DNA from: Chloroflexota bacterium
GTDB lineage: Bacteria > Chloroflexota > UBA6077 > FW602-bin22 > JAMCVK01
Assembly: GCA_023475225.1 (NCBI GenBank)
Contig: JAMCVK010000048.1
Coordinates: forward strand, 1-63,484
DNA: 63,484 bases
Direction: 5' to 3'
The notes below the pieces were generated by a model. The model saw only the letters and a list, made by a program, of their open reading frames with translations, searched no databases and had not been told where the DNA came from. Below, in pieces: positions 3,096-21,111 of the stretch; within the stretch, counting starts at the first letter, position 1; each line of letters begins with the position of its first letter. Made by a program: the position numbers and the translations under genes.

Positions 3096-3548
3096 CTAGG
3101 ACTGCCAGGATTGCAGCTGGGTGATGACCTGGGCTAGATCCCGACACACTTTTCCTTTCGGCTCTATACAATCTAATAAGAGGGGCGATAATGCCTTGCC
3201 TCCAGCTGTCCAGTGACGACCAGCCACTCGCCAATCGGTCAACAATCCAAGGATACCTCTTTTAGACTCATCGTTCATCATCAAGGCATAAAAGAGACCA
3301 ATCTCGCAGGCAACTTCGTCGTCCACCGTGAAGCCATCCAGTATGGCCACCATCGCTTCCGCCCCTCTCAATTGCTGGCGGCGTCTTTCGATAGCCATCT
3401 TCGCCTCACTCCTAGCTTCAGTAGTAGACATCATTTCATCCCAGGGAAGGAGGCAGTCGAAACCGTGCTGCTGCAATTCAGCTGCGATTTCGACGAGATA
3501 TCGTCGCTCATAGGGCGTAGACATCGGTCCGGTACAATACACTTTCAC
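3096..3548 (-). CDS. Nucleoside 2-deoxyribosyltransferase-family protein (paralog 1)
   Basis: A 150-residue Rossmann-like protein with the family start KVYCTGPMSTPYER and a C-terminal half around VAILDGFTVDDEVACEIG. The family moves deoxyribose (or cleaves the N-glycosidic bond) using a Glu nucleophile, and the Glu of EIG is kept. The SGT that normally precedes it is replaced by DDEV, so substrate or activity may differ from its neighbour. The GTG start at 3548 lies 4 nt after the stop of paralog 2, with GAGGGG as ribosome site. It is the last gene of the nucleoside block. The exact substrate is unknown. Confidence 0.75.
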   Translation of the reverse strand: MKVYCTGPMSTPYERRYLVEIAAELQQHGFDCLLPWDEMMSTTEARSEAKMAIERRRQQLRGAEAMVAILDGFTVDDEVACEIGLFYALMMNDESKRGILGLLTDWRVAGRHWTAGGKALSPLLLDCIEPKGKVCRDLAQVITQLQSWQS

Positions 3549-3552
3549 TGTC

Positions 3553-4023
3553 TCACCCCTCCAGCTCTTTGCGCCATCGTTCTAGCTGAACGACAATCTC
3601 CCTCAGCTCCTGGCATACCTTTCCTACCCTCTCTATGCAGCCCAAAGAGAAGAGGTTCAAAAATTGTTCTGCCCCAGCCGCTCGTCGGCGATAAGCCCGA
3701 GAGTCGCTCAGCAAACCAAGGATTCCCTTTTTCGATGGATCGTTTTGCATCAGGACATAGAAAATACCAATCTCGCAAGCGGTGCCGCTGCTTATATCTG
3801 GCCCATCCAGTAAAGCGACGACGGCATTGGCTTCGGACAAGCCTCCATAATCAGCTATAAAGACTTGCTCTGCCGTTGGGGGACGTCCGGTAGTGATCCG
3901 TGTTTCTCCGTGTTCGTGGGGCACAAAACACTCAAAACCGTGATCCCTCAAGATCTTGGCGTTGTGGGAAGTGAATTCCCGCTGATAGGGAGTAAAAAGT
4001 GGCCCAGCACAGTAGATCTTCAC
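3553..4023 (-). CDS. Nucleoside 2-deoxyribosyltransferase-family protein (paralog 2)
   Basis: This 156-residue protein is a close relative of the gene that follows it. It begins VKIYCAGPLFTPYQRE and carries the canonical DGPDISSGTACEIG stretch with the catalytic Glu, plus a shared GILGLLSD segment. The GTG start at 4023 is preceded by AAGGAGGAG; the longer frame to 4089 has no comparable site and would overlap the upstream gene. It stands 10 nt behind the TIM-barrel gene and 4 nt before paralog 1, so all are probably co-transcribed. Role: nucleoside or nucleotide base exchange or hydrolysis, inferred from family. Confidence 0.8.
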   Translation of the reverse strand: MKIYCAGPLFTPYQREFTSHNAKILRDHGFECFVPHEHGETRITTGRPPTAEQVFIADYGGLSEANAVVALLDGPDISSGTACEIGIFYVLMQNDPSKKGILGLLSDSRAYRRRAAGAEQFLNLFSLGCIERVGKVCQELREIVVQLERWRKELEG

Positions 4024-4033
4024 CGTCTCCTCC

Positions 4034-5011
4034 TTACTTATAAGTAGCGAACAGGGACTGGCGAATCTGGTCGATGGTGGATATAGCATCGTGTCGTCGA
4101 ACAGCTGCCAAAACCTCCTTAGCGTTAAGCCCTTGTGCCACCTGGTCCATAGCCTTAACGTTCCTTATGCTTAACTCCAAGGCCTTTCGCGGGTCTTCCC
4201 GTGTCGGGAACTGATCCAACGAATACCAACCATCGTAACCTATCTGTCGCAGCCAAAAGAGCAATTCCAAGAATTCAGCGAAGTGGACGGTGCCCACAAC
4301 CATATCCCAATCCCAATCGCCATAGTTATCGTTAAGGTGCAGGTGAAATAGGCGGTTGTGCTTGTGCAGGATCACCGCCCACTCCGCAGGATTTTCGTAG
4401 GCCATAAAGGCGTGACCTGTATCCAAATTGGCGCCCACGTTAGGTAGGCCGACGGTGTTGGCCAGGAGCAACACCTTGGCAATACTGCCCAGAGCGCTAT
4501 GCGTTCTGGGCTCCTTCAGCTTGGACTCAAGGCAGATCTTCACCTGGGGGTTATGACGGGCGCACTCATTCACGCCCTCAACCAACAACTCCCAGATTCG
4601 GCCGTGATCAACCTGGAGGGGATAATCATAGCCATCCTGCCCCATCCACAGGTTGATTCGGTTTGCCCCCAGCTCCTTAGCGATATCCATCGCCTCTTTT
4701 ATTAACCCGATAGCATCTGCCCTGATGCGTTCATCCGGATTGGTCAAGGAGCCGTTTTGCCATTTGGCCTCTCCGCTGAGAGCCGGGCTCACCACAGAAC
4801 AGTCCAATCCGTTATCTTTCAGGTAATCCTTAACCCTGGGTACATCCGTTTCCCTAAACAGGCTGGGGTAGTGCAGCTCGACCCCATTCAATCCATCAAT
4901 TTGAGCCGCCAGCTCAATGCGCTCTTTTAGGGAGATAGGGGGCCGATAACCACCTGTGCAAAAGCGATCAATGCAGGGGCTAAATGGTATTAGATTTGTT
5001 GACCACTTCAT
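4034..5011 (-). CDS. Sugar phosphate isomerase/epimerase-like TIM barrel
   Basis: A 325-residue protein of the xylose isomerase-like TIM-barrel (AP endonuclease 2) superfamily. Metal-ligand motifs typical of the family are seen: CLESKLKEP, NVGANLDTGHAF, LFHLHLNDNYGDWDWD and the late W..LDQFPTRED. Members interconvert ketoses and aldoses or epimerise sugars. In this operon a role in handling ribose or deoxyribose released from nucleosides is plausible, but it is inference. ATG 5011 is chosen because GAGGAG precedes it; a TTG at 5026 is possible. The first 32 nt overlap the end of the adenosine deaminase gene, which suggests coupled translation. Confidence 0.75.
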   Translation of the reverse strand: MKWSTNLIPFSPCIDRFCTGGYRPPISLKERIELAAQIDGLNGVELHYPSLFRETDVPRVKDYLKDNGLDCSVVSPALSGEAKWQNGSLTNPDERIRADAIGLIKEAMDIAKELGANRINLWMGQDGYDYPLQVDHGRIWELLVEGVNECARHNPQVKICLESKLKEPRTHSALGSIAKVLLLANTVGLPNVGANLDTGHAFMAYENPAEWAVILHKHNRLFHLHLNDNYGDWDWDMVVGTVHFAEFLELLFWLRQIGYDGWYSLDQFPTREDPRKALELSIRNVKAMDQVAQGLNAKEVLAAVRRHDAISTIDQIRQSLFATYK

Positions 5012-6023
5012 TCCATCGCTCCTCAAAAACAGTTAGGATAGCCTTTCTCTCTGGCTCGGACAGGAAAGCACCATTCAAGGCATTGAGAACAGTCTTCTTT
5101 ATTTCAGGCAGACCCCACCCAAACTCCTCAACTAACAGCTCGTATTCATGGGTGAGGTCAGTGCCAGCTACGGTAGGATCATCCGTATTGACTGTGACGG
5201 CCAATCCCTGGGCCAGAAAGCGATCAATCGGATGTTGGCTTAAGGATTCGGCGGCACCCGTTTGGACGTTACTCGTTGGGCACATCTCCAAGGTGACCCC
5301 TTTGTCTCCCACCTCTCGGAGCAGGAGGGGATCCTCGGCCAATCTAACCCCATGACCCAGTCTCTCTGCATAGAGTATATCTAGCGCTTCCCTGATGCTC
5401 TCCGGCCCAGCTCCTTCACCGGCATGGACGGTGCGATGCAATCCAGCGTCATACGCCCTTCGAAAGGCTTCTCGATGTGGATAACCGGGGTAGCCAGTTT
5501 CATCGCCGGCCAGGTCAACACCGACCACTTTATTTATCCCCTGATTGGCGATGGCCAGCTTGACGATCTCTGTGCTGAGCTCCGGCGGCTCGTCGCGGCG
5601 GCAGACGAGGATAAGACCACTCTTCAGCCCGAAATTCTTTTCCGCTCTCGTCAGGCCATTCGCCACTGCCCGCAGGGCCTCTTGGTAAGATAAACCGCCT
5701 CGGGTACATGATTGGGGAGCAAATTTAACCTCGGCGTAGATGACATTCTGTTTGGCCAGGTCCTCGATCAGTTCGTAAGAGATTCTCTCCAAGGACTCTG
5801 CATCCTGCATCACCGCGAAAGCCATATCTATCCGGCTAAGGTAGGCGGCCAGCGGCAGACGCATCTCGGAAGAACCCTGCCATTCCTCAAATGCGTCTGA
5901 TAATGGCAGACCTCTCTGTCGTAAAAGTTCTTTGATCGTGGTTAAGCGCAGGGCCCCAACGGAATGGAGATGCAATTCCGCTTTGGGAAGGCGCTGTATC
6001 ATCTCTCTATTAAGGACTGTCAT
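4980..6023 (-). CDS. Adenosine deaminase-family protein
   Basis: A 347-residue amidohydrolase. It keeps the N-terminal zinc pair (AELHLHSVGALR, residues 15-26), HAGEGAGPESIREAL near residue 198 with the catalytic sequence, and VNTDDPTV near residue 278 carrying the zinc-binding Asp pair. The LHLHSVGAL start differs slightly from the common LHxHLxGxL. It should deaminate adenosine to inosine, feeding the nucleoside hydrolase upstream; aminodeoxyfutalosine or adenine deaminases share this fold and cannot be excluded. The start ATG overlaps the previous stop in an ATGA, with AAGGAGGG before it. Confidence 0.85.
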   Translation of the reverse strand: MTVLNREMIQRLPKAELHLHSVGALRLTTIKELLRQRGLPLSDAFEEWQGSSEMRLPLAAYLSRIDMAFAVMQDAESLERISYELIEDLAKQNVIYAEVKFAPQSCTRGGLSYQEALRAVANGLTRAEKNFGLKSGLILVCRRDEPPELSTEIVKLAIANQGINKVVGVDLAGDETGYPGYPHREAFRRAYDAGLHRTVHAGEGAGPESIREALDILYAERLGHGVRLAEDPLLLREVGDKGVTLEMCPTSNVQTGAAESLSQHPIDRFLAQGLAVTVNTDDPTVAGTDLTHEYELLVEEFGWGLPEIKKTVLNALNGAFLSEPERKAILTVFEERWNEVVNKSNTI

Positions 6024-7084
6024 AGGTTCCCTCCTTGCAATCTACGAACCAGCTCAATTTGGCGTTCAAGGTGGTGCAGGTTATTCGCTACGGCTTGAAA
6101 CATCTGTTCAGCCAGGGAAAGGTTATCTATACTGTTTACCTGTTCCACCAGCTCAATCCAGCGGCGGGGGATGGCCTCCACGCCGCTAAAGGCGCCGGCG
6201 ATGGCTCCCGCTATCGTGCCGATGGTGTCGCAGTCTCGCCCAAAGTTAGCGGCATAAAGCACTGCCGTCTCAGGCCGACCCCGGGCCAGATAAAAGAGGG
6301 CTAAGGCACAGGGGACAGCCTCGCGAGGGTCCACGGTATCCTCGTATCCCTCTGGGAAAATGCGCGGCCAGGGCATCAGGTATCTATTGTAGAACTGCTC
6401 GCGAAAGACAGTGTACTCCCTGCACTCGCGGGCCAGGGATATGGCCCTTTCGACATAGGGTCTGAATCCAGCCCCATCCAGATACACCACCGCCGCCTCA
6501 CCGACCGAATCTGGGGTAGCCTCGGGGTTAAAAGCCTCCGCCACCGCAGCGGCCACGGCACAGGCGGCCTCCTGAGGGAACCCAGAATGAATCAGGGAGC
6601 TTACTTCGTAGGCATCCAACACGGCCTGCTGGGGATTGCAGGCGTTAATGATACCGACTGGAGCGATGGCCATAGCTGAGCTGTTGCTGATCATGTTGCC
6701 CCGTCCAATCTCCCGGGGTGGTAGATTGCCCAGCATGAGCTTATAATAAGAGTTCTGGACCGGCACGTAGAAATCCCTCGGATTCATCTCTTCCCGCCAG
6801 ACCTCAGCCATATCGGCTGCTGTAACCCTGCCCCCCTTCTTGATGATAGCCCGACAGAGGAGATGCTTCAAGATAGTGTCGTCAGTACAGCTACCGGCTG
6901 GCCTACCCTTATGGATAGCGGCCGTCTCACCATAAGGGAGCAGGTCCCGCACCTCGCCGAATAACCGCTGAATGGTCTTGTAGTGCATCATCTCCGTTGG
7001 GCCACCCATCGCATCACCAATGGCCCCACCAGCTAGACAGCCATGAATCTTGCTAAACAATATGCTCGAGTGGTAAGATTCCAT
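6020..7084 (-). CDS. ADP-ribosylglycohydrolase (DraG/ARH) family protein
   Basis: A 354-residue all-helical ADP-ribosylglycohydrolase-fold protein. The paired Mg2+ ligand motifs are present: GGAIGDAMGGPTE near the start, SCTDDT at about residue 65, and GRDCDTIGTIAGAIAGA at about residue 282. The family removes ADP-ribose from proteins or hydrolyses ADP-ribose-like compounds. Sitting between a nucleoside hydrolase and an adenosine deaminase, it may act on a small ADP-ribosyl or nucleoside substrate instead of a protein; this is inference. ATG 7084 with GGGAGGTC before it is preferred over the 39-codon longer frame, which runs through a hairpin repeat. Confidence 0.82.
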   Translation of the reverse strand: MESYHSSILFSKIHGCLAGGAIGDAMGGPTEMMHYKTIQRLFGEVRDLLPYGETAAIHKGRPAGSCTDDTILKHLLCRAIIKKGGRVTAADMAEVWREEMNPRDFYVPVQNSYYKLMLGNLPPREIGRGNMISNSSAMAIAPVGIINACNPQQAVLDAYEVSSLIHSGFPQEAACAVAAAVAEAFNPEATPDSVGEAAVVYLDGAGFRPYVERAISLARECREYTVFREQFYNRYLMPWPRIFPEGYEDTVDPREAVPCALALFYLARGRPETAVLYAANFGRDCDTIGTIAGAIAGAFSGVEAIPRRWIELVEQVNSIDNLSLAEQMFQAVANNLHHLERQIELVRRLQGGNL

Positions 7085-7153
7085 TAATGACCTCCCGAAC
7101 GAGATACAGGGCATTAGGAAAATCCCGCCCCGCCCCAAACCTCGGGTTTCAGA

Positions 7154-7191
7154 GCCCTCACCCCCTAGAGAGGCTTCGCTCCTCTCTCTAG
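7154..7191. repeat. Intergenic repeat fragment with hairpin inside the nucleoside operon
   Basis: GCCCTCACCCCCT (7154-7166) is identical to 60996-61008 in the large repeat mosaic. It is followed by AGAGAGG (7167-7173) pairing with CCTCTCT (7181-7187) around a 7-nt loop. It lies in the 153-nt gap between the nucleoside hydrolase and ADP-ribosylglycohydrolase genes and may act as a transcript hairpin. Confidence 0.5.
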
Positions 7192-7237
7192 CAGGGAACA
7201 AGAAACCATCAGCGCCTCGGATCCTACGAGGTTTGCT

Positions 7238-8221
7238 CTATGCGCTCCTGCCGGCTCCCCCTGACCCTCTGGCGAGGCACTCTACAAAGCGATCAACCAA
7301 ACGGCGTCCATCCACTTTAAGGCAGACATTAACATTGGGCGGTTTGCCCAACCGCCCGCGAAAATCAGCCACCGTCTGCCCATAGGTGATCATCCCCTTC
7401 GTCTCCACAGTTAAATATAGCTTCTTGACCGTAAACAGGGTTGGGTCAAGGGCATAGGCCACAGCAGGAACATCGTTAAAATGCATCCAAGGGCCTGCAC
7501 CGTACAAGGTATACCCCTCAGCGCCAATATATCCCTGGCGCTCGCCAAGCATATGTTTTCGGCTTATAGCCGTCAGGAAATCGGTCATGGGGGTATGAGC
7601 AGCTCCGATAACAGCCATCTGCTCTTCAGTTACGTAGCAATGCTCGCAGACATCCAACCCTATCTGGGTCAAGGGCATCCCCGATTCACAAACGATATAG
7701 GCTGCCTCCGGATCGTTGTACATGTTGGCCGAGGCCACCGGGGTAGCGTTACCCATAGCAAAGATTGCTCCACCCATATAGATAACCTCCCTGACATTTT
7801 GAGCTATCTGCGGCTCCAGGCTCACGGCTAAGGCAAGGTTGGTCAGCGGGCCGAGGGCGATGACGGTTATCTCACCCGGCGCTTCCATAATTCGTGTGAT
7901 GATCTGCTCAGCAGCCCGTCCAGGAGCCAGACAGCTGTGTGGTGGAGCGAAGGAGACGTCACCAAGCCCATCATCACCGTGAACGCGCTTGCCATATCTT
8001 GGCTCTTTCAACAGAGGCCTGGCCGCGCCTTGATATACAGGGATGTCTGACCTCCCAGCGACCTCCAGAACCTTCAAGGCATTGCGACTGCACTGTTCTA
8101 TCTCTACATTACCATAGACAGTGGTCAATGCCTCTACCTGAAGTTGGCCGGAGGAGAGGGCGAAGAAGATCGCTGCCGTATCGTCTATCCCGGGGTCTGT
8201 ATCGATGATCACCCGTTTCAT
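7238..8221 (-). CDS. Inosine/uridine-preferring nucleoside hydrolase
   Basis: A 327-residue member of the nucleoside N-ribohydrolase family. The Ca2+-binding signature DTDPGIDD is at residues 6-13 and the later family stretch ALGPLTNLA is present. It cleaves ribonucleosides to ribose and free base in the cytoplasm. ATG 8221 is preferred over upstream ATGs because GGAGG lies 5 nt before it and the protein then begins MKRVIIDTD, as usual for the family. It lies directly after the ABC permease genes, which suggests that the imported substrate is a nucleoside or contains one. Confidence 0.92.
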   Translation of the reverse strand: MKRVIIDTDPGIDDTAAIFFALSSGQLQVEALTTVYGNVEIEQCSRNALKVLEVAGRSDIPVYQGAARPLLKEPRYGKRVHGDDGLGDVSFAPPHSCLAPGRAAEQIITRIMEAPGEITVIALGPLTNLALAVSLEPQIAQNVREVIYMGGAIFAMGNATPVASANMYNDPEAAYIVCESGMPLTQIGLDVCEHCYVTEEQMAVIGAAHTPMTDFLTAISRKHMLGERQGYIGAEGYTLYGAGPWMHFNDVPAVAYALDPTLFTVKKLYLTVETKGMITYGQTVADFRGRLGKPPNVNVCLKVDGRRLVDRFVECLARGSGGAGRSA

Positions 8222-8342
8222 TAATACCTCCATACTGCTTGAGATAGCTGATCGCATTTTGGCCATATTGAGCGGCCGAAGCGTAGTTAACCCCTAAGAA
8301 ATTCCGTTCGCTACGGTGAAGTGATGGGGAGTGATTTTTGTC

Positions 8343-9266
8343 TTAGCCTTTAAGGCCAGACATAATCACACCTTTGACGTAGTAGTTTTGCAGGATCACG
8401 AACAAGATCAGGATAGGAAGGGTCGCCGCGGCACAACCAGCGAAGATCCAGCCCCAGAAGATATTCACATCGGTGCTGAAGGCGGCGATGGCTACCTGGA
8501 CAACCTGTTTACTCTTATCCTGCATGATCACCAATGGCCAGAAGAAGGAATCCCAAGACCATAGGAATTGGACCAGGGCAAAGCTGACTAGGGCCGGACG
8601 TACGTTGGGTAGCATCACGTTCCAATAGACACCAAAGTGCGAACAGCCGTCGATGACCGCCGCATCCTCAAGATCCCGTGGTATCTGCATAAAAAATTGT
8701 CGCAACAGGAAGATACCGAAGGGACTGGCTATCCAGGGCACGATCAGCGCCTGGTAGGTGTTCTGCATCCCCAAATTCTTAACCACCAGGTACAGAGGCA
8801 CGATAATGGCGTCGAAGGGAATGAGCATGGAGCTCAGGACGAGGACGAAGACAAGTTCCCGACCAGGGAATTGAACCCGGGCTAAGATATAAGCGATAAG
8901 CGAGTTTATGACTAGGGCTAGAACCACCGACGACGTAGCCACGAACAAGCTGTTGGCCATCGCCCGACCAAAGTCCAGCTTAAGGAAGATGTCCCAGAAA
9001 TTCTGCAATGTAGGAGAGACTGGTATGAATGTATTCAGCGAGAGAGGATAGATATACTTAAAGATCTCCGCCTGTGTCTTCAGGGCAGAGAAGAACATCC
9101 AGGCATAAGGGATAAGGAAGATAAGGATGATCCCCAAGTAGAGCAGGACAAAGGTGGTTCTCTGGCTGGCCTGCTGCAAAGCCTTGCTCACCACCGCTCT
9201 CCTGGATGGTATCGCTCGTAGTTCAACAGGGATGGCCTTTTCGCTTACTTCTATGCTCTGTGGCAT
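8343..9266 (-). CDS. ABC transporter permease, MalG-like (CUT1)
   Basis: A 307-residue permease with six predicted membrane spans and the EAA loop facing the ATPase (EDAAVIDGCSHFGVYWNVMLP). It is the second membrane subunit of a carbohydrate-uptake-type importer. ATG 9266 has AAGGAGA before it. It lies 30 nt after the MalF-like gene. No ATP-binding subunit is encoded in the window, so the importer probably borrows a shared ATPase of the MsiK/UgpC type. Substrate is not given by the sequence; neighbours suggest nucleosides or ADP-ribose. Confidence 0.9.
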   Translation of the reverse strand: MPQSIEVSEKAIPVELRAIPSRRAVVSKALQQASQRTTFVLLYLGIILIFLIPYAWMFFSALKTQAEIFKYIYPLSLNTFIPVSPTLQNFWDIFLKLDFGRAMANSLFVATSSVVLALVINSLIAYILARVQFPGRELVFVLVLSSMLIPFDAIIVPLYLVVKNLGMQNTYQALIVPWIASPFGIFLLRQFFMQIPRDLEDAAVIDGCSHFGVYWNVMLPNVRPALVSFALVQFLWSWDSFFWPLVIMQDKSKQVVQVAIAAFSTDVNIFWGWIFAGCAAATLPILILFVILQNYYVKGVIMSGLKG

Positions 9267-9296
9267 CTTGCTAATCTCCTTCTTGCCCCGACTGAA

Positions 9297-10196
9297 TTAA
9301 TATTCTACTGGACGACCGATGGCTCGCATCTGAAACAGGCTTATAGCCAAAATGATTACTAGCAAGATAACGGATAGGGCCGAGGCGTAACCCATAGCAT
9401 TGTAGAAGAAGGCCCTCTCATAGATGTAGTACACGACCACCCTGGTAGCATCCCCTGGCCCGCCATGCGTCATTAAATAAACCGGGGTGAAAACGCGGAA
9501 GGCGAAGATCGTCTCCGTGACCAGGACGAAGAGGGTTGTACCTTTCAAAAGAGGAAGGGTGATATGCCGAAATCGCGACCAGGCGCCGGCTCCATCAATG
9601 GCTGCTGCCTCGTGCAGCTCCTCGGGGATACCCTGTAGACCGGCCAGGAAGAAGATCATGCTGAAGCCTACATCCTTCCAGATGGACATTAGAATGATGG
9701 AGGGCATGGCCTGGGTCTCATCGATCAGGAACTTCATGCGGGGCAAGCCCACGCTGGCCAACAGGCTGTTAAGTATGCCTTGGCTGGGATGATACATCAT
9801 CAGCCATAACGTCGATACGATGACCAGCGAGGTCACCACCGGGATGAAGATGCTGGCACGGGTTACGGGAATAAACCAGCCGCTGCGGTTCACCGCCATA
9901 GCCAAAGCCAAGCCCAAGGCCATCTGGATGGGCACCTTCCCCAGCACATAATAGGCTACGTTAATGAGCGAAGTACGAAAGAGGGGATCACGGAAAGCTT
10001 CGTAATAATTATTTAAACCGATAAAGGTCATGGTCGGGCTAAGGAGGCTGTACTCGTAAAAGCCAATCCGGACAGCCTCAATCAGGGGGAGAAGACGGAA
10101 GATGAACAAGAGAATGAGGGCCGGGGCAGCGAAGGACACAATCGCAAACCACTTCTGATATGCTCGTTTTCGAAACACCTCTGCGGTGACGCTCAC
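9297..10196 (-). CDS. ABC transporter permease, MalF-like (CUT1)
   Basis: A 299-residue permease with six predicted membrane spans, the first near residues 13-35, and the EAA loop EELHEAAAIDGAGAWSRFRHITLP. It pairs with the downstream MalG-like subunit. The start is GTG 10196 (SVTAEVF follows), preceded by a strong GGGAGGGGG. The longer frame to 10250 would run into the palindromic hairpin at 10237-10269 and is unlikely. The hairpin between the lipoprotein gene and this gene probably lowers permease expression relative to the binding protein. Confidence 0.9.
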   Translation of the reverse strand: MSVTAEVFRKRAYQKWFAIVSFAAPALILLFIFRLLPLIEAVRIGFYEYSLLSPTMTFIGLNNYYEAFRDPLFRTSLINVAYYVLGKVPIQMALGLALAMAVNRSGWFIPVTRASIFIPVVTSLVIVSTLWLMMYHPSQGILNSLLASVGLPRMKFLIDETQAMPSIILMSIWKDVGFSMIFFLAGLQGIPEELHEAAAIDGAGAWSRFRHITLPLLKGTTLFVLVTETIFAFRVFTPVYLMTHGGPGDATRVVVYYIYERAFFYNAMGYASALSVILLVIILAISLFQMRAIGRPVEY

Positions 10197-10236
10197 TATT
10201 TTTCCCCCTCCCTGGATATGAATGGGCAAAAGATAT

Positions 10237-10269
10237 ACCTGGTGGGGCATAGGTTATGCCCCACCAGGT
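10237..10269 (-). terminator. Perfect 15-bp hairpin between binding-protein and permease genes
   Basis: The arms 10237-10251 and 10255-10269 are perfect complements (15 bp) around a 3-nt loop. There is no clear U tract, so it looks more like an mRNA-protecting or partial-termination hairpin than a full terminator. Such structures are known downstream of binding-protein genes, for example malE. Confidence 0.75.
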
Positions 10270-10277
10270 AGGCCGCT

Positions 10278-11660
10278 CTACTTGGCGTACTTCTTCAGCT
10301 CGGCATCAATCTTGGTCGCCGCTGTTTTGATCGTGCTCTCCACCGGCAGTCCCTTGATGATGTCAGCCAAAGCCTGTTTTAGTAAAGTGCCGTACTCCGT
10401 ATAGCCGGGCGTCTCCGGGCGCGAGTGCCCCCACTTGACCAGCTCCAGGTAGGAGATGTTCAGCGGGAAGGACTGATACTCGGGTATTTTGGCAAAGGTA
10501 GATTTGCGCGCTGATAGCCGGCTAATCAGGCTATACCAGGTAGGCGACATCTCCTTGCTGGTCATGAACTTGACGAACTCCTTGGCCTCCTTCTGATGCT
10601 TGCTGCCGGAGGTGATCATAAACATGAAACTGCCTGTATGGGTGATAGGGGTCTTGAAATAGGGCAACGGCGTGAGCGCCCAGGGTATATCCGGGTACTT
10701 CGTCTTCAGGATGATGCGTAGGTCCTCCGGGCGCATGTAGGTGGCCGCCTTGCCGGTCTCGAAGGCATCAGGGACCGTCGCCTGAGGGGAGAGCTTCCAC
10801 TTGTTGAAGAAGTCGGACATGAACTGGAAGGCCTCCAGCGCCTGCGGCGTGTCGATGTAGCCAGTCACCTTGGTGCCATCAGGGCTCATCCCCAGAAAGG
10901 TGGGCGTGCCCGGCTTATCGTTGGAACGAACCATGGGTATCCAGTCATAGTCTGTCCCGATGCTGCGCGTCACCAGCCCCCAGACCTTGGGGACGCCACC
11001 GGGGGGGATAGGACCAACGACCTTGCGCAGGGCCTCAGCGAACTGGGGCCAGGTCCAGGCATCCTCCAGGGTCTTCGGTGGCTTAATGCCCGCCTCATCG
11101 AACATCTTGGTATTGTAGAAGATGACGATGGAGGACTGCTGGATCGGGCCAGCGTAGAGTTTGCCCTTCCAAGACCCTTCTTTCACCGAAGCATCGACGA
11201 AGTCATCCATATCTTCCTTGGTGTAGATGTCGTCCAGGGGGATGATGGAGCCAGCATAGGCATAGCCCTTGATATTAGGGCCATCGCCCCAGATGACATC
11301 GTGGGGATCGCCTGAGGCCAGGGAGACAGCGATCTTGCGGAAGAACTCCATGAAGGGCACTGTCTCATACGCTACCTTGATATTCGGGTGTTTTTCCTCG
11401 AACATTTTGAGGGCCTTAGCGAAGGCTGTATCTTGCGGCTCACCGCTGACAGAGAGGAACCTTATGGTGACTGGGGCCGGTGGCTTGGTCGGCGTCGGTG
11501 GCGCTGGCGTAGGAGTGGCTACAGCCACGGGGGTCGGCGCTGCTGGTGGGGCGGGCGGCTTGGTCGGCGTAGGGGTTGGGGCGGCCGCCGGAGCACAGGC
11601 GCTCACTACAAAACCCAACAACAAAATGACAACGATCGGCAGCAAAAATCGTCTTTTCAC
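10278..11660 (-). CDS. ABC transporter substrate-binding lipoprotein (CUT1)
   Basis: A 460-residue family 1 solute-binding protein. It has a lipoprotein signal peptide (KRRFLLPIVVILLLG) with the lipobox VVSAC, cysteine at residue 22. A 45-residue Pro/Thr/Ala-rich tether follows, then a binding domain starting about residue 67 (ITIRFLSVSGE-like start, then FEEKHPNIKVAYE). The tether is a habit of Chloroflexota lipoproteins. GTG 11660 has AAAGGAGA before it. It is the first large gene of the operon, behind a promoter at 11919-11948. Ligand unknown; genomic context favours a nucleoside, ADP-ribose or a ribosyl sugar. Confidence 0.92.
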   Translation of the reverse strand: MKRRFLLPIVVILLLGFVVSACAPAAAPTPTPTKPPAPPAAPTPVAVATPTPAPPTPTKPPAPVTIRFLSVSGEPQDTAFAKALKMFEEKHPNIKVAYETVPFMEFFRKIAVSLASGDPHDVIWGDGPNIKGYAYAGSIIPLDDIYTKEDMDDFVDASVKEGSWKGKLYAGPIQQSSIVIFYNTKMFDEAGIKPPKTLEDAWTWPQFAEALRKVVGPIPPGGVPKVWGLVTRSIGTDYDWIPMVRSNDKPGTPTFLGMSPDGTKVTGYIDTPQALEAFQFMSDFFNKWKLSPQATVPDAFETGKAATYMRPEDLRIILKTKYPDIPWALTPLPYFKTPITHTGSFMFMITSGSKHQKEAKEFVKFMTSKEMSPTWYSLISRLSARKSTFAKIPEYQSFPLNISYLELVKWGHSRPETPGYTEYGTLLKQALADIIKGLPVESTIKTAATKIDAELKKYAK

Positions 11661-11890: not shown

Positions 11891-11905
11891 TTTCACAATG
11901 TGAAA
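11891..11905 (-). promoter_or_regulatory. Palindromic operator candidate
   Basis: TTTCACAATGTGAAA is a perfect 7+1+7 palindrome placed about +7 to +21 after the predicted start point of the ABC operon. That is a classic position for a repressor site. No regulator gene is adjacent. Confidence 0.55.
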
Positions 11906-11918
11906 GACCTTTGCATAC

Positions 11919-11948
11919 ATTATAGGGGTAAAAAAGAGCCCTTGTCAA
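11919..11948 (-). promoter_or_regulatory. Consensus sigma70 promoter of the ABC/nucleoside operon
   Basis: On the minus strand a perfect TTGACA (11943-11948) and a perfect TATAAT (11919-11924) are spaced by 18 bp. The predicted start is near 11912, 250 nt before the lipoprotein gene. The IS256 element begins 16 bp upstream of the -35 box and leaves the promoter intact. Confidence 0.75.
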
Positions 11949-11963
11949 GAAATTTTTCAAACC

Positions 11964-13247
11964 GGTAGTGTAACATCTTGTGTGTAAAAACAGAGGGGCG
12001 TATCCTTCCAAAGATAAGACAAACTTGAAAGGAGGTACGCCCCATGGCGCAGGTCAAAGACCTGACCAAACTAACAGTAGCGGATTTATGGCAGGAGGTC
12101 AAGGATGAAGAGGAGTGGTGGGGTGACTTGAAGGAGGAGACCCTCAGGGTGGTGAAGCGTCTTCTGGAAAGCGCTATGGAGGAAGAGATGATGGAGCAGC
12201 TTCGGGCTGGCCGCTATAGACGCACCGAGCTGAGGCGGGGATACCGCAACGGTTACCGACAGCGTAGTCTGCTCACTGAGCTAGGGCTGGTGGAACCCTT
12301 GCGAGTGCCCCGGGACCGGGAGGGAACATTCCAGCCCACTGTTATTCCACGCTACCAGCAACGCCAGGAGAAGGTGAATGGTCTGGTACGGGAGATGTTC
12401 CTACAAGGGGTCAGCACCAGAAAAGTGGGGAAGGTGTTGAAGCCCCTCTTAGGGACTGAGCTAAGCCCGCAGACAGTCTCTCGAATCAGCCGCAGTCTGG
12501 ATGCCGAGGTGCGGCGCTTTCACCAGCGGCCTTTAGAGGACTGCTTTGAGTATCTGTTCCTGGATGGCCTTACCTTGAAGGTGAAGGCAGGTACCAGAGT
12601 AAGGAAGCGGCTGGTGCTATGCGCCTATGGGATCAGGAGAGATGGGCAGCGAGAGATGATAAGTTTTCGCCAGGCTACTGCCGAAAGCGAAGCCCAGTGG
12701 GAGGCCTTCCTGCGGGACCTGTATGAGCGGGGGCTACACGGGAAGATCCTGGCCCTGGTGGTTACCGATGGCAACTCCGGACTGCATCGGGCCCTGGACA
12801 CCGTTTACCCCTACGTGCTCCGCCAACGCTGCTGGGTGCACAAGCTCAGGAATGTGGCAGTCAAATTACCCAGGAGGGTGCAAGAGCCCTGCCTTAAAGG
12901 GGCCAAGGCCATCTACCAGGCCCCTAACCGGCGGCAGGCAGTGGCTCGGTTTCGGGAATGGGCCCAGCAGTGGCGGCCTATCCAGCCCAGGGCTGTTAAC
13001 TGTCTGGAGACAGACCTGGAGGAACTACTCAGTTTCCTGGACTGCCCCAAAGCTCATTGGCGTAAGGTGCGCACCACCAATGTCATAGAGCGGGCTTTCC
13101 GGGAGATAAGACGCAGGACCAACCCTATGAGCTGCTTCCAGAACCCTGCCAGCGTGGATCGGATTATCTATGGCATCATCAATAATCTCAACTCAACCTG
13201 GAAGGGAAAGCCCCTCTCGGAATTTACACACTATACTTGACACTACC
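11964..13247 (+). mobile_element. IS256-family insertion sequence, complete, with 8-bp target duplication
   Basis: The element is 1284 bp. Its ends are imperfect inverted repeats: GGTAGTGT at 11964-11971 followed by GTGTGTAAA, matched at the right end by TTTACACAC and ACACTACC ending at 13247. The 8-bp sequence TTCAAACC occurs directly on both sides (11956-11963 and 13248-13255), which is the duplication length of this family. An uninterrupted transposase fills it. Intact ends, duplication and ORF indicate a recent insertion. Confidence 0.93.
12044..13240 (+). CDS. IS256-family transposase (mutator type)
   Basis: A 398-residue DDE transposase. Catalytic residues can be placed at D174 (FLDGLTLKV), D242 (VVTDGNSG) and E349 (TTNVIERAFREIRRR), giving the family spacing. 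The N-terminal helix-turn-helix part contains YRNGYRQRSL. A strong ribosome site (GAAAGGAGG) precedes ATG 12044. The stop lies inside the right inverted repeat. No frameshift or stop was noticed, so it is probably active. Confidence 0.95.
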   Translation: MAQVKDLTKLTVADLWQEVKDEEEWWGDLKEETLRVVKRLLESAMEEEMMEQLRAGRYRRTELRRGYRNGYRQRSLLTELGLVEPLRVPRDREGTFQPTVIPRYQQRQEKVNGLVREMFLQGVSTRKVGKVLKPLLGTELSPQTVSRISRSLDAEVRRFHQRPLEDCFEYLFLDGLTLKVKAGTRVRKRLVLCAYGIRRDGQREMISFRQATAESEAQWEAFLRDLYERGLHGKILALVVTDGNSGLHRALDTVYPYVLRQRCWVHKLRNVAVKLPRRVQEPCLKGAKAIYQAPNRRQAVARFREWAQQWRPIQPRAVNCLETDLEELLSFLDCPKAHWRKVRTTNVIERAFREIRRRTNPMSCFQNPASVDRIIYGIINNLNSTWKGKPLSEFTHYT

Positions 13248-20250: not shown

Positions 20251-21111
20251 ATGGAGAGCGTTTCCATCGCCGTTATCGGCGGCAGTGGGCTATATCAAAT
20301 GGGGGAACTAACGGATATTGAAGAGGCATACCTCTCAACACCATTCGGTGAGCCAAGCGATGCTATAACCATCGGCACCATCATGGGGAAAAGGATAGCC
20401 TTTTTACCTCGTCACGGCCGAGGACACTATATCAGTCCAACGAACCTAAATGCTCGGGCCAACATCTACGCCTTAAAGTTACTGGGGGTAGAACAAATCA
20501 TCTCTGTGAGCGCCGTTGGGAGCATGAAGGAAGAGATCGCACCGCTTGATATCGTCATACCAGACCAGCTCTTTGACCGAACAAAAACACGCCTTAATAC
20601 CTTCTTTGATTCCAGCATCGTCGTGCATATCGGCTTCGCTGAACCATTTTGCCCCGTATTGAGCAACACCCTCTACGCCGCTGCTGTAGATAATGGGGCA
20701 ACTGTGCACAAAGGGGGTACCCTTCTTTGCATCGAAGGGCCCCAATTTTCGACTAAGGCCGAGTCACGCATCTATCGCCAGTGGGGCATAGATATCATCG
20801 GAATGACTGCTATTCCGGAGGCCAAGCTGGCACGTGAGGCAGAGATCTGCTACGCTACCCTCGCCATGGTAACCGACTACGATGTTTGGCACGAAACCGA
20901 GGCTCCAGTCACCATTGAAATGGTCGTAGAAAACCTAGGACGCAATGCTGCGATGGCCCAACGCATAATCAAATCCGTTGTACCCTTCCTGTCAAGAGAA
21001 CGGAAATGCCCCTGTGCCAGCGCTTTGGAAAATACCATAATAACCCAGCGAGATAGGATTCCAGCCAAATTAAGGGAGGACCTCAAGCCCCTCTTGGGTA
21101 AGTATTTTTAA
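20251..21111 (+). CDS. mtnP: S-methyl-5'-thioadenosine phosphorylase
   Basis: A 286-residue purine nucleoside phosphorylase of the MTAP type: GGSGLY (10-15), LPRHGRGH, SAVGSMKEEI, CIEGPQFSTKAESR, GMTAIPEAKLAREAEICYA and VTDYDVW. It splits methylthioadenosine into adenine and methylthioribose-1-phosphate. Methylthioadenosine is the by-product of the spermidine synthase encoded at 40.8-41.7 kb. Its place between fhaB and rodA is where actinobacteria carry the PP2C phosphatase gene. AGGAGG precedes ATG 20251. Confidence 0.93.
   Translation: MESVSIAVIGGSGLYQMGELTDIEEAYLSTPFGEPSDAITIGTIMGKRIAFLPRHGRGHYISPTNLNARANIYALKLLGVEQIISVSAVGSMKEEIAPLDIVIPDQLFDRTKTRLNTFFDSSIVVHIGFAEPFCPVLSNTLYAAAVDNGATVHKGGTLLCIEGPQFSTKAESRIYRQWGIDIIGMTAIPEAKLAREAEICYATLAMVTDYDVWHETEAPVTIEMVVENLGRNAAMAQRIIKSVVPFLSRERKCPCASALENTIITQRDRIPAKLREDLKPLLGKYF

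Follow-up and report, generated by a model that had tools for sequence, protein, structure and literature searches.

A Predicted Operon for Nucleoside Uptake and Catabolism with a CUT1-Type ABC Importer in a Chloroflexota Bacterium

Introduction

ATP-binding cassette (ABC) importers of the CUT1 type usually carry oligosaccharides and their derivatives (PMC3333776). What does such an importer take up when its genes share a strand with those of nucleoside-cleaving enzymes? The question is raised by nine open reading frames on the minus strand at positions 3096-11660 of a 63,484-nucleotide contig (JAMCVK010000048.1, contig C48; hereafter the window) in the 97%-complete, 2.74-Mb assembly of a Chloroflexota bacterium (GCA_023475225.1; 50 contigs). 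A preliminary description had tentatively assigned this locus to the uptake and stepwise dismantling of a ribosylated compound such as ADP-ribose, NAD fragments, or modified nucleosides. We favor, with reasonable confidence, its reading as an operon for the uptake and breakdown of nucleosides, in which a CUT1-type ABC importer takes in what are probably purine ribo- and deoxyribonucleosides.

Dead cells supply nucleosides as sources of carbon and nitrogen, and the known ABC importers for them in the literature that we found are of the BMP type; no CUT1 nucleoside importer was found in the open-access full text searched. If our reading is correct, such an importer would be new, annotations as "sugar" transporters would hide nucleoside uptake, and the many ADP-ribosylglycohydrolase (ARH)-family proteins encoded in transporter operons, including the product of E. 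coli yegU, a gene of unknown function, would gain a definite class of substrates for testing.

Organization of the Operon

From the first gene, the order is solute-binding lipoprotein (SBP), permease A, permease B, nucleoside hydrolase (NH), ARH, adenosine deaminase (ADA), isomerase, and two nucleoside 2-deoxyribosyltransferase-like proteins (NDT1 and NDT2). Likely starts backed by Shine-Dalgarno sequences lie at 11660, 10196, 9266, 8221, 7084, 6023, 5011, 4023, and 3548. Pfam matches agree with the families named in the preliminary description, all on one strand as it stated. Its short gaps and overlaps hold from the ARH gene onward, where the junctions are overlaps or gaps of up to approximately 10 bp, and the three earlier junctions given here are wider (SBP/permease, 81 bp; permease/NH, 121 bp; NH/ARH, 153 bp).

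The importer genes encode a CUT1-type solute-binding lipoprotein (10278-11660; Pfam SBP_bac_1/8) and two permeases with PF00528 (BPD_transp_1) domains. Permease A (9297-10196), of the UgpA/MalF type, has a Shine-Dalgarno sequence at its start and UgpA as its best NCBIfam match (1.8e-36), whereas permease B (8343-9266), of the UgpE/GlcU/MalG type, matches GlcU/UgpE; both fall below the equivalog cut-offs. This is the composition of a CUT1 importer; the binding protein of a BMP-type system would carry PF02608, and that of the window is SBP_bac_1/8. No ATPase gene lies inside the nine-gene cluster. The genome contains one strong solo OB_MalK ATPase gene, away from the operon at C14:117681, and this MalK/MsmX-type protein probably powers the window importer. 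The sharing of one ATPase among importers is an arrangement known for MsmX.

A TTGACA-18 nt-TATAAT promoter (11919-11948, minus strand), identical to the consensus at 12 of 12 positions and without a second such site in the region, precedes the first gene. A 16-bp stem-loop found by sequence scan between the SBP and permease A genes (10236-10270, minus strand) is a possible brake favoring SBP expression. The idea of a riboswitch in the operon leader was dropped, Rfam giving no match. An intact IS256-family element (window 11964-13247), whose 35-nucleotide terminal inverted repeats are imperfect and whose 8-bp target duplication (TTCAAACC) is perfect, is inserted 15 bp upstream of the -35 box, outside the operon.

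CUT1 Binding Proteins beside Nucleoside-Cleaving Enzymes

The strongest evidence on the function of the locus comes from the organism's own genome, in which nucleoside-cleaving genes adjoin three CUT1-type importers and also several CUT1 binding proteins encoded alone. Five further proteins, 72-83% identical to the window SBP, are encoded at other sites. On contig C26 the paralogue is accompanied by a uridine-phosphorylase-like gene, an MtnA-like isomerase, and an NH; C8 carries a uridine-phosphorylase-like gene and an SBP paralogue; and on C46 a type I phosphodiesterase, an SBP paralogue, a uridine-phosphorylase-like gene, and a second SBP paralogue occur together. The paralogue on C14 has no nucleoside-cleaving neighbor. 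Assembly contamination was rejected as the source of these paralogues, since the GC and tetranucleotide profiles of their contigs are close to those of the window (distances of 0.11-0.23, versus 0.42-0.67 for six loci of other genomes).

Besides a different SBP, the second complete CUT1 operon, located on C9, encodes an NH, an ARH, and an AIR-synthase-like protein, a pair of type I phosphodiesterase/nucleotide pyrophosphatase-family proteins, two permeases, an MTAP-like phosphorylase, and an MtnA-like isomerase. Relatives of its SBP (65-70%) on C25 and C18 adjoin phosphodiesterase genes, that on C18 also an amidohydrolase nearest to deaminase models. A third CUT1 operon, on C35, includes a phosphorylase gene (PF01048) and one that, read by eye, resembles amidohydrolases.

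The genome encodes four PF01156 hydrolases, 11 PF01048 phosphorylases, and 18 proteins matching PF13416. No more than 3 kb separates three of the four hydrolase and four of the 11 phosphorylase genes (7/15) from a PF13416 match, against approximately 0.8 expected at random (binomial p ~4e-6), and 5/13 remain (p ~2e-4) once duplicates (the C8/C46 module and, on C26, the second gene) are collapsed; these values assume random gene placement and, because catabolic genes generally cluster with importers, they show linkage, not ligand. None of the 15 genes is within 5 kb of the genome's seven BMP-type genes.

Several type I phosphodiesterase/nucleotide pyrophosphatase-family genes on C9 (locus L008, 4939-9059 and 12883-13980), C18, C25, and C46 are 82-87% similar to one another and stand beside CUT1 binding proteins. 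They apparently lack signal peptides, and their products may act on imported nucleotides. The AIR-synthase-like (PurM-fold) match in the C9 operon (L008, 4101-4946) is weak; this protein could phosphorylate an imported nucleoside. A further PF01048 phosphorylase, MTAP-like and 38% identical to that of C9, is encoded in the window at 20251-21111, outside the nine-gene locus.

Operon Enzymes and Predicted Catabolism

The ADA (4980-6023; Pfam A_deaminase, 2.6e-90) matches adenosine deaminase structures and scores above its NCBIfam equivalog cut-off (TIGR01430, 306 bits versus 216.55). For the transporter components, NH, ARH, and the isomerase, the NCBIfam matches stay below the equivalog cut-offs, and the NDT proteins have no such match, so that the families are secure and the exact substrates are not. 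The NH (7238-8221; PF01156, IU_nuc_hydro, 1.8e-89) scores within its family and keeps the N-terminal DxDPGxDD motif and the C-terminal Asp. In the ARH-family protein (6020-7084; PF03747, ADP_ribosyl_GH, 1.3e-53), alignment to the structures of ARH3 and MJ1187 shows that the counterparts of the ARH3 metal-site residues (TDDT, GRDCDT) and of Glu41 are present; the DRAG and Tri1 equivalog cut-offs are not reached. The two ARH proteins of the genome belong to different subfamilies, the C9 protein being YegU-like (37%) and the window protein 27% identical to YegU and closer to proteins from elsewhere in the phylum (42-48%).

The xylose-isomerase-like TIM barrel (4034-5011; PF01261, AP_endonuc_2, 3.3e-34) has 3ktc as its nearest solved structure (1.7e-66). 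Alignment to 1bxb and 3ktc matches most of the Glu/Asp and Lys residues of the xylose isomerase metal site, with one Glu replaced by Asp, and the protein is a probable aldose-ketose isomerase acting on the released pentose; equivalog cut-offs are not reached. NDT1 (3553-4023; PF05014, Nuc_deoxyrib_tr, 1.4e-15) retains the catalytic Glu and both Asp residues, and NDT2 (3096-3548; PF05014, 1.7e-13) retains the Glu and lacks the first Asp of NDT1, at the Asp72-like position of the alignment.

From these assignments we present a hypothesis of metabolic activity. The lipoprotein would capture nucleosides, and the two permeases would bring them in. ADA would convert adenosine to inosine, and NH would split base from ribose, with NDT1 handling deoxynucleosides and NDT2 acting as its partner. 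The freed aldopentose would be converted by the xylose-isomerase-like protein to a ketopentose, which an enzyme encoded elsewhere would phosphorylate. The ARH-family hydrolase would cleave imported ribosides of another class, probably ones beyond the reach of the ordinary hydrolase, for example those with an alpha linkage or another modification.

A Shared Operator

A predicted palindromic operator, TTTCACATTGTGAAA (11891-11905, minus strand), lies 13 bp past the -10 box. We derived the pattern TTTCRCWTYRYGAAA from four similar sites, and only those four match it exactly genome-wide, with no match in the reversed control; because the pattern came from those same sites, what it shows is the absence of any further exact site. 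The sites are upstream of the window operon, the C14 SBP, a C18 SBP, and a C18 gene encoding an IclR-family N-terminus (read by eye), and all four palindromes stand downstream of a TTGACA/TATAAT promoter. The IclR-type protein is probably a repressor of the operon and of the other binding-protein genes. The only further site with one mismatch (C42:13092) is inside an unrelated binding-protein reading frame and was treated as chance.

Similar leaders with GGAGGTGATG-like motifs occur upstream of SBP genes in four loci (L084, L085, L086, and L112). Palindromes of the form TCGAAGA(C/G)TCTTCGA recur upstream of several solo binding-protein genes. Neither the leaders nor the palindromes gave an Rfam match.

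Relatives in Other Genomes

Relatives at the thresholds used, the organism's own genome included, were found in 3 of 61 genomes for NDT1 and, among 350 genomes each, in 15 for the isomerase, 18 for ARH, and 6 for the SBP. One genome (G008) has SBP, permease A, permease B, and NH genes in the window's order, with an adenine deaminase further on, and in another (G076) SBP and permease relatives are followed by an NH gene. Together with the pairing in the organism's own genome, these cases support the proposal of an importer-linked locus for the stepwise dismantling of a ribosylated compound. In a third (G052), an NDT1 relative (51%) is encoded within a BMP-type importer operon that also contains NH and adenine deaminase genes. 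SBP relatives occur in other contexts as well, for example in G026 and R. etli, and the single neighborhood opened among the plasmid NH matches (Aminobacter) is not linked to a transporter. Isomerase relatives adjoin FGGY-kinase-like and transketolase-like genes (neighbors read by eye); these fit a pentose and do not name it, and as proof of ribose use they were dropped.

ARH-Family Genes as Partners of Importers

We opened 15 ARH neighborhoods, 14 from plasmids and that of E. coli yegU, an uneven and partly related sample. An importer gene is beside the ARH gene or within a few genes of it in 13 of them. These include CUT1 operons (Pseudochrobactrum, Ensifer, Nitratireductor, Microvirga, Agrobacterium, Sinorhizobium, and Phyllobacterium), other ABC importers with a PfkB kinase (Paracoccus and Mesorhizobium), a nucleoside permease with PfkB (Pantoea), a cytosine permease with PfkB (Plesiomonas), a phosphotransferase system (PTS; Enterococcus), and yegTUV (E. 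coli). No importer was found next to ARH in two archaeal neighborhoods. Because the ARH genes of other genomes accompany importers for nucleosides, cytosine, and sugars, ADP-ribose cannot be read from the family name.

Substrate of the Operon and Alternative Explanations

Several observations weigh against our reading. In sequence and in its AlphaFold model (pLDDT 82.9, MalE-like fold), the SBP is nearest to oligosaccharide-binding proteins, at approximately 20% identity. The natural binding proteins among the fold matches shown have oligosaccharides, trehalose/maltose, or sulfoquinovose-type sugars as ligands, and no nucleoside-bound structure is among those matches. The modeled fold neither supports nor excludes nucleosides and is not decisive, and naming the ligand from it was abandoned because the neighbors are all of the oligosaccharide type at such low identity. 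The linkages on C8 and C46 represent a single duplicated module, and no kinase for free ribose or ribulose is encoded in the operon. The genome already carries seven BMP-type loci; the importer is sugar-type and not BmpA-type, as the preliminary description said, and it does not replace the BmpA type. The nine-gene set and order proposed there for a search of relatives were not found among the sampled genomes (61 for NDT1, up to 350 for the isomerase, ARH, and SBP), but the pairing of importer with nucleoside enzymes was, and the condition that the description gave for its own refutation thus holds in part. Finally, the NH has Ser in place of IU-NH Glu166 and Asn in place of His241, with an insertion before the latter in the alignment; among five other NH proteins aligned, Glu is kept in all five and His in four. 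In the IU-NH structure, Glu166 holds the free 5'-OH and His241 aids the leaving base. With two conserved active-site residues missing, the NH may act on a modified compound; the changes hint that its substrate differs, perhaps in carrying a 5' modification, or that its activity is weak.

An importer for an ordinary sugar or polyol (a glycoside or oligosaccharide), co-transcribed by chance with a neighboring salvage cluster, would accord with the usual CUT1 cargo, with the sugar ligands of the SBP's fold neighbors, and with SBP relatives in other settings. We regard this as unlikely, given that several distinct CUT1 SBPs are linked to nucleoside-cleaving enzymes in one genome beyond chance and that an operator is common to the operon and other binding-protein genes. 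Slightly less likely again is that ADP-ribose, fragments of NAD, or other ribosides, 5'-substituted or alpha-linked, are taken up and dismantled, with the altered NH and the ARH acting on these in place of plain nucleosides. The ARH family name and intact metal-site residues, the Ser and Asn substitutions in NH, and the two apparently cytoplasmic phosphodiesterase/nucleotide pyrophosphatase-family genes of the C9 operon all speak for it. The window operon, however, has no pyrophosphatase, NUDIX, or NADase gene, its ADA and NDT families act on nucleosides, with ADA above the equivalog cut-off, and ARH genes elsewhere accompany nucleoside, cytosine, and PTS importers. Nothing points specifically to ADP-ribose or NAD, which was given up as the default substrate and retained as a rival. 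Least credible, to the point of being very improbable, is that intracellular nucleoside recycling was joined to a transporter by recent rearrangement, with no functional unit resulting. The intact IS256-type element with its target duplication close to the promoter, and the nine-gene set, seen only at this locus, count in its favor, but the element lies outside the operon, upstream of its promoter, and the genes overlap, share one good promoter, and have an operator in common with other binding-protein genes.

A bolder reading can be framed, which we hold to be doubtful. The bacterium may have evolved a CUT1 importer family with many interchangeable nucleoside-dedicated SBPs, the window operon taking alpha-linked or 5'-modified ribosides by means of the altered NH and an ARH-fold small-molecule ribosidase.

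Comparison with Known Systems

The BMP-family ABC nucleoside importers (BmpA-NupABC of Lactococcus, PnrA, and NupDABC of Thermococcus kodakarensis, TK0657-0660; PMC12628685) likewise serve nucleoside catabolism, and in G052 their genes adjoin nucleoside-cleaving enzymes; the window system differs in its CUT1/MalE-type binding protein and permeases and in an ATPase probably shared in trans. With the CUT1 importers UgpABCE and MalEFGK2 it has in common the SBP and permease family and, probably, a shared-ATPase arrangement, whereas its predicted ligand is a nucleoside and not a glycerophosphodiester or oligosaccharide. The nucleoside 2'-deoxyribosyltransferase encoded by Borrelia bb0426 (PMC2764106) is also a PF05014 enzyme of purine salvage; the window has two divergent copies in an importer operon, the second lacking a conserved Asp.

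E. coli yegTUVW (PMC10819704) encodes a putative nucleoside:H+ symporter, an ARH-family protein, a PfkB kinase, and a GntR regulator. Its ARH-family gene is likewise beside a predicted nucleoside transporter, but that transporter belongs to the major facilitator superfamily and is not an ABC system, a kinase is present, and there is no nucleoside hydrolase. The function of yegTUV has been called unknown and its regulator tied to ADP-glucose and glycogen (PMC10819704).

A conserved rhizobial operon (Agrobacterium, Sinorhizobium, Ensifer, Nitratireductor, and Phyllobacterium) resembles that of the window in combining a CUT1 importer with ARH genes, which there directly follow the importer. Unlike the window operon, it has its own UgpC ATPase and no nucleoside hydrolase, ADA, or NDT genes. 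In five neighborhoods (L147, L148, L154, L155, and L157) its order is LacI-permease-permease-SBP-ARH-ARH-UgpC, the second ARH protein being approximately 700 amino acids long, and its function is unreported in the literature searched.

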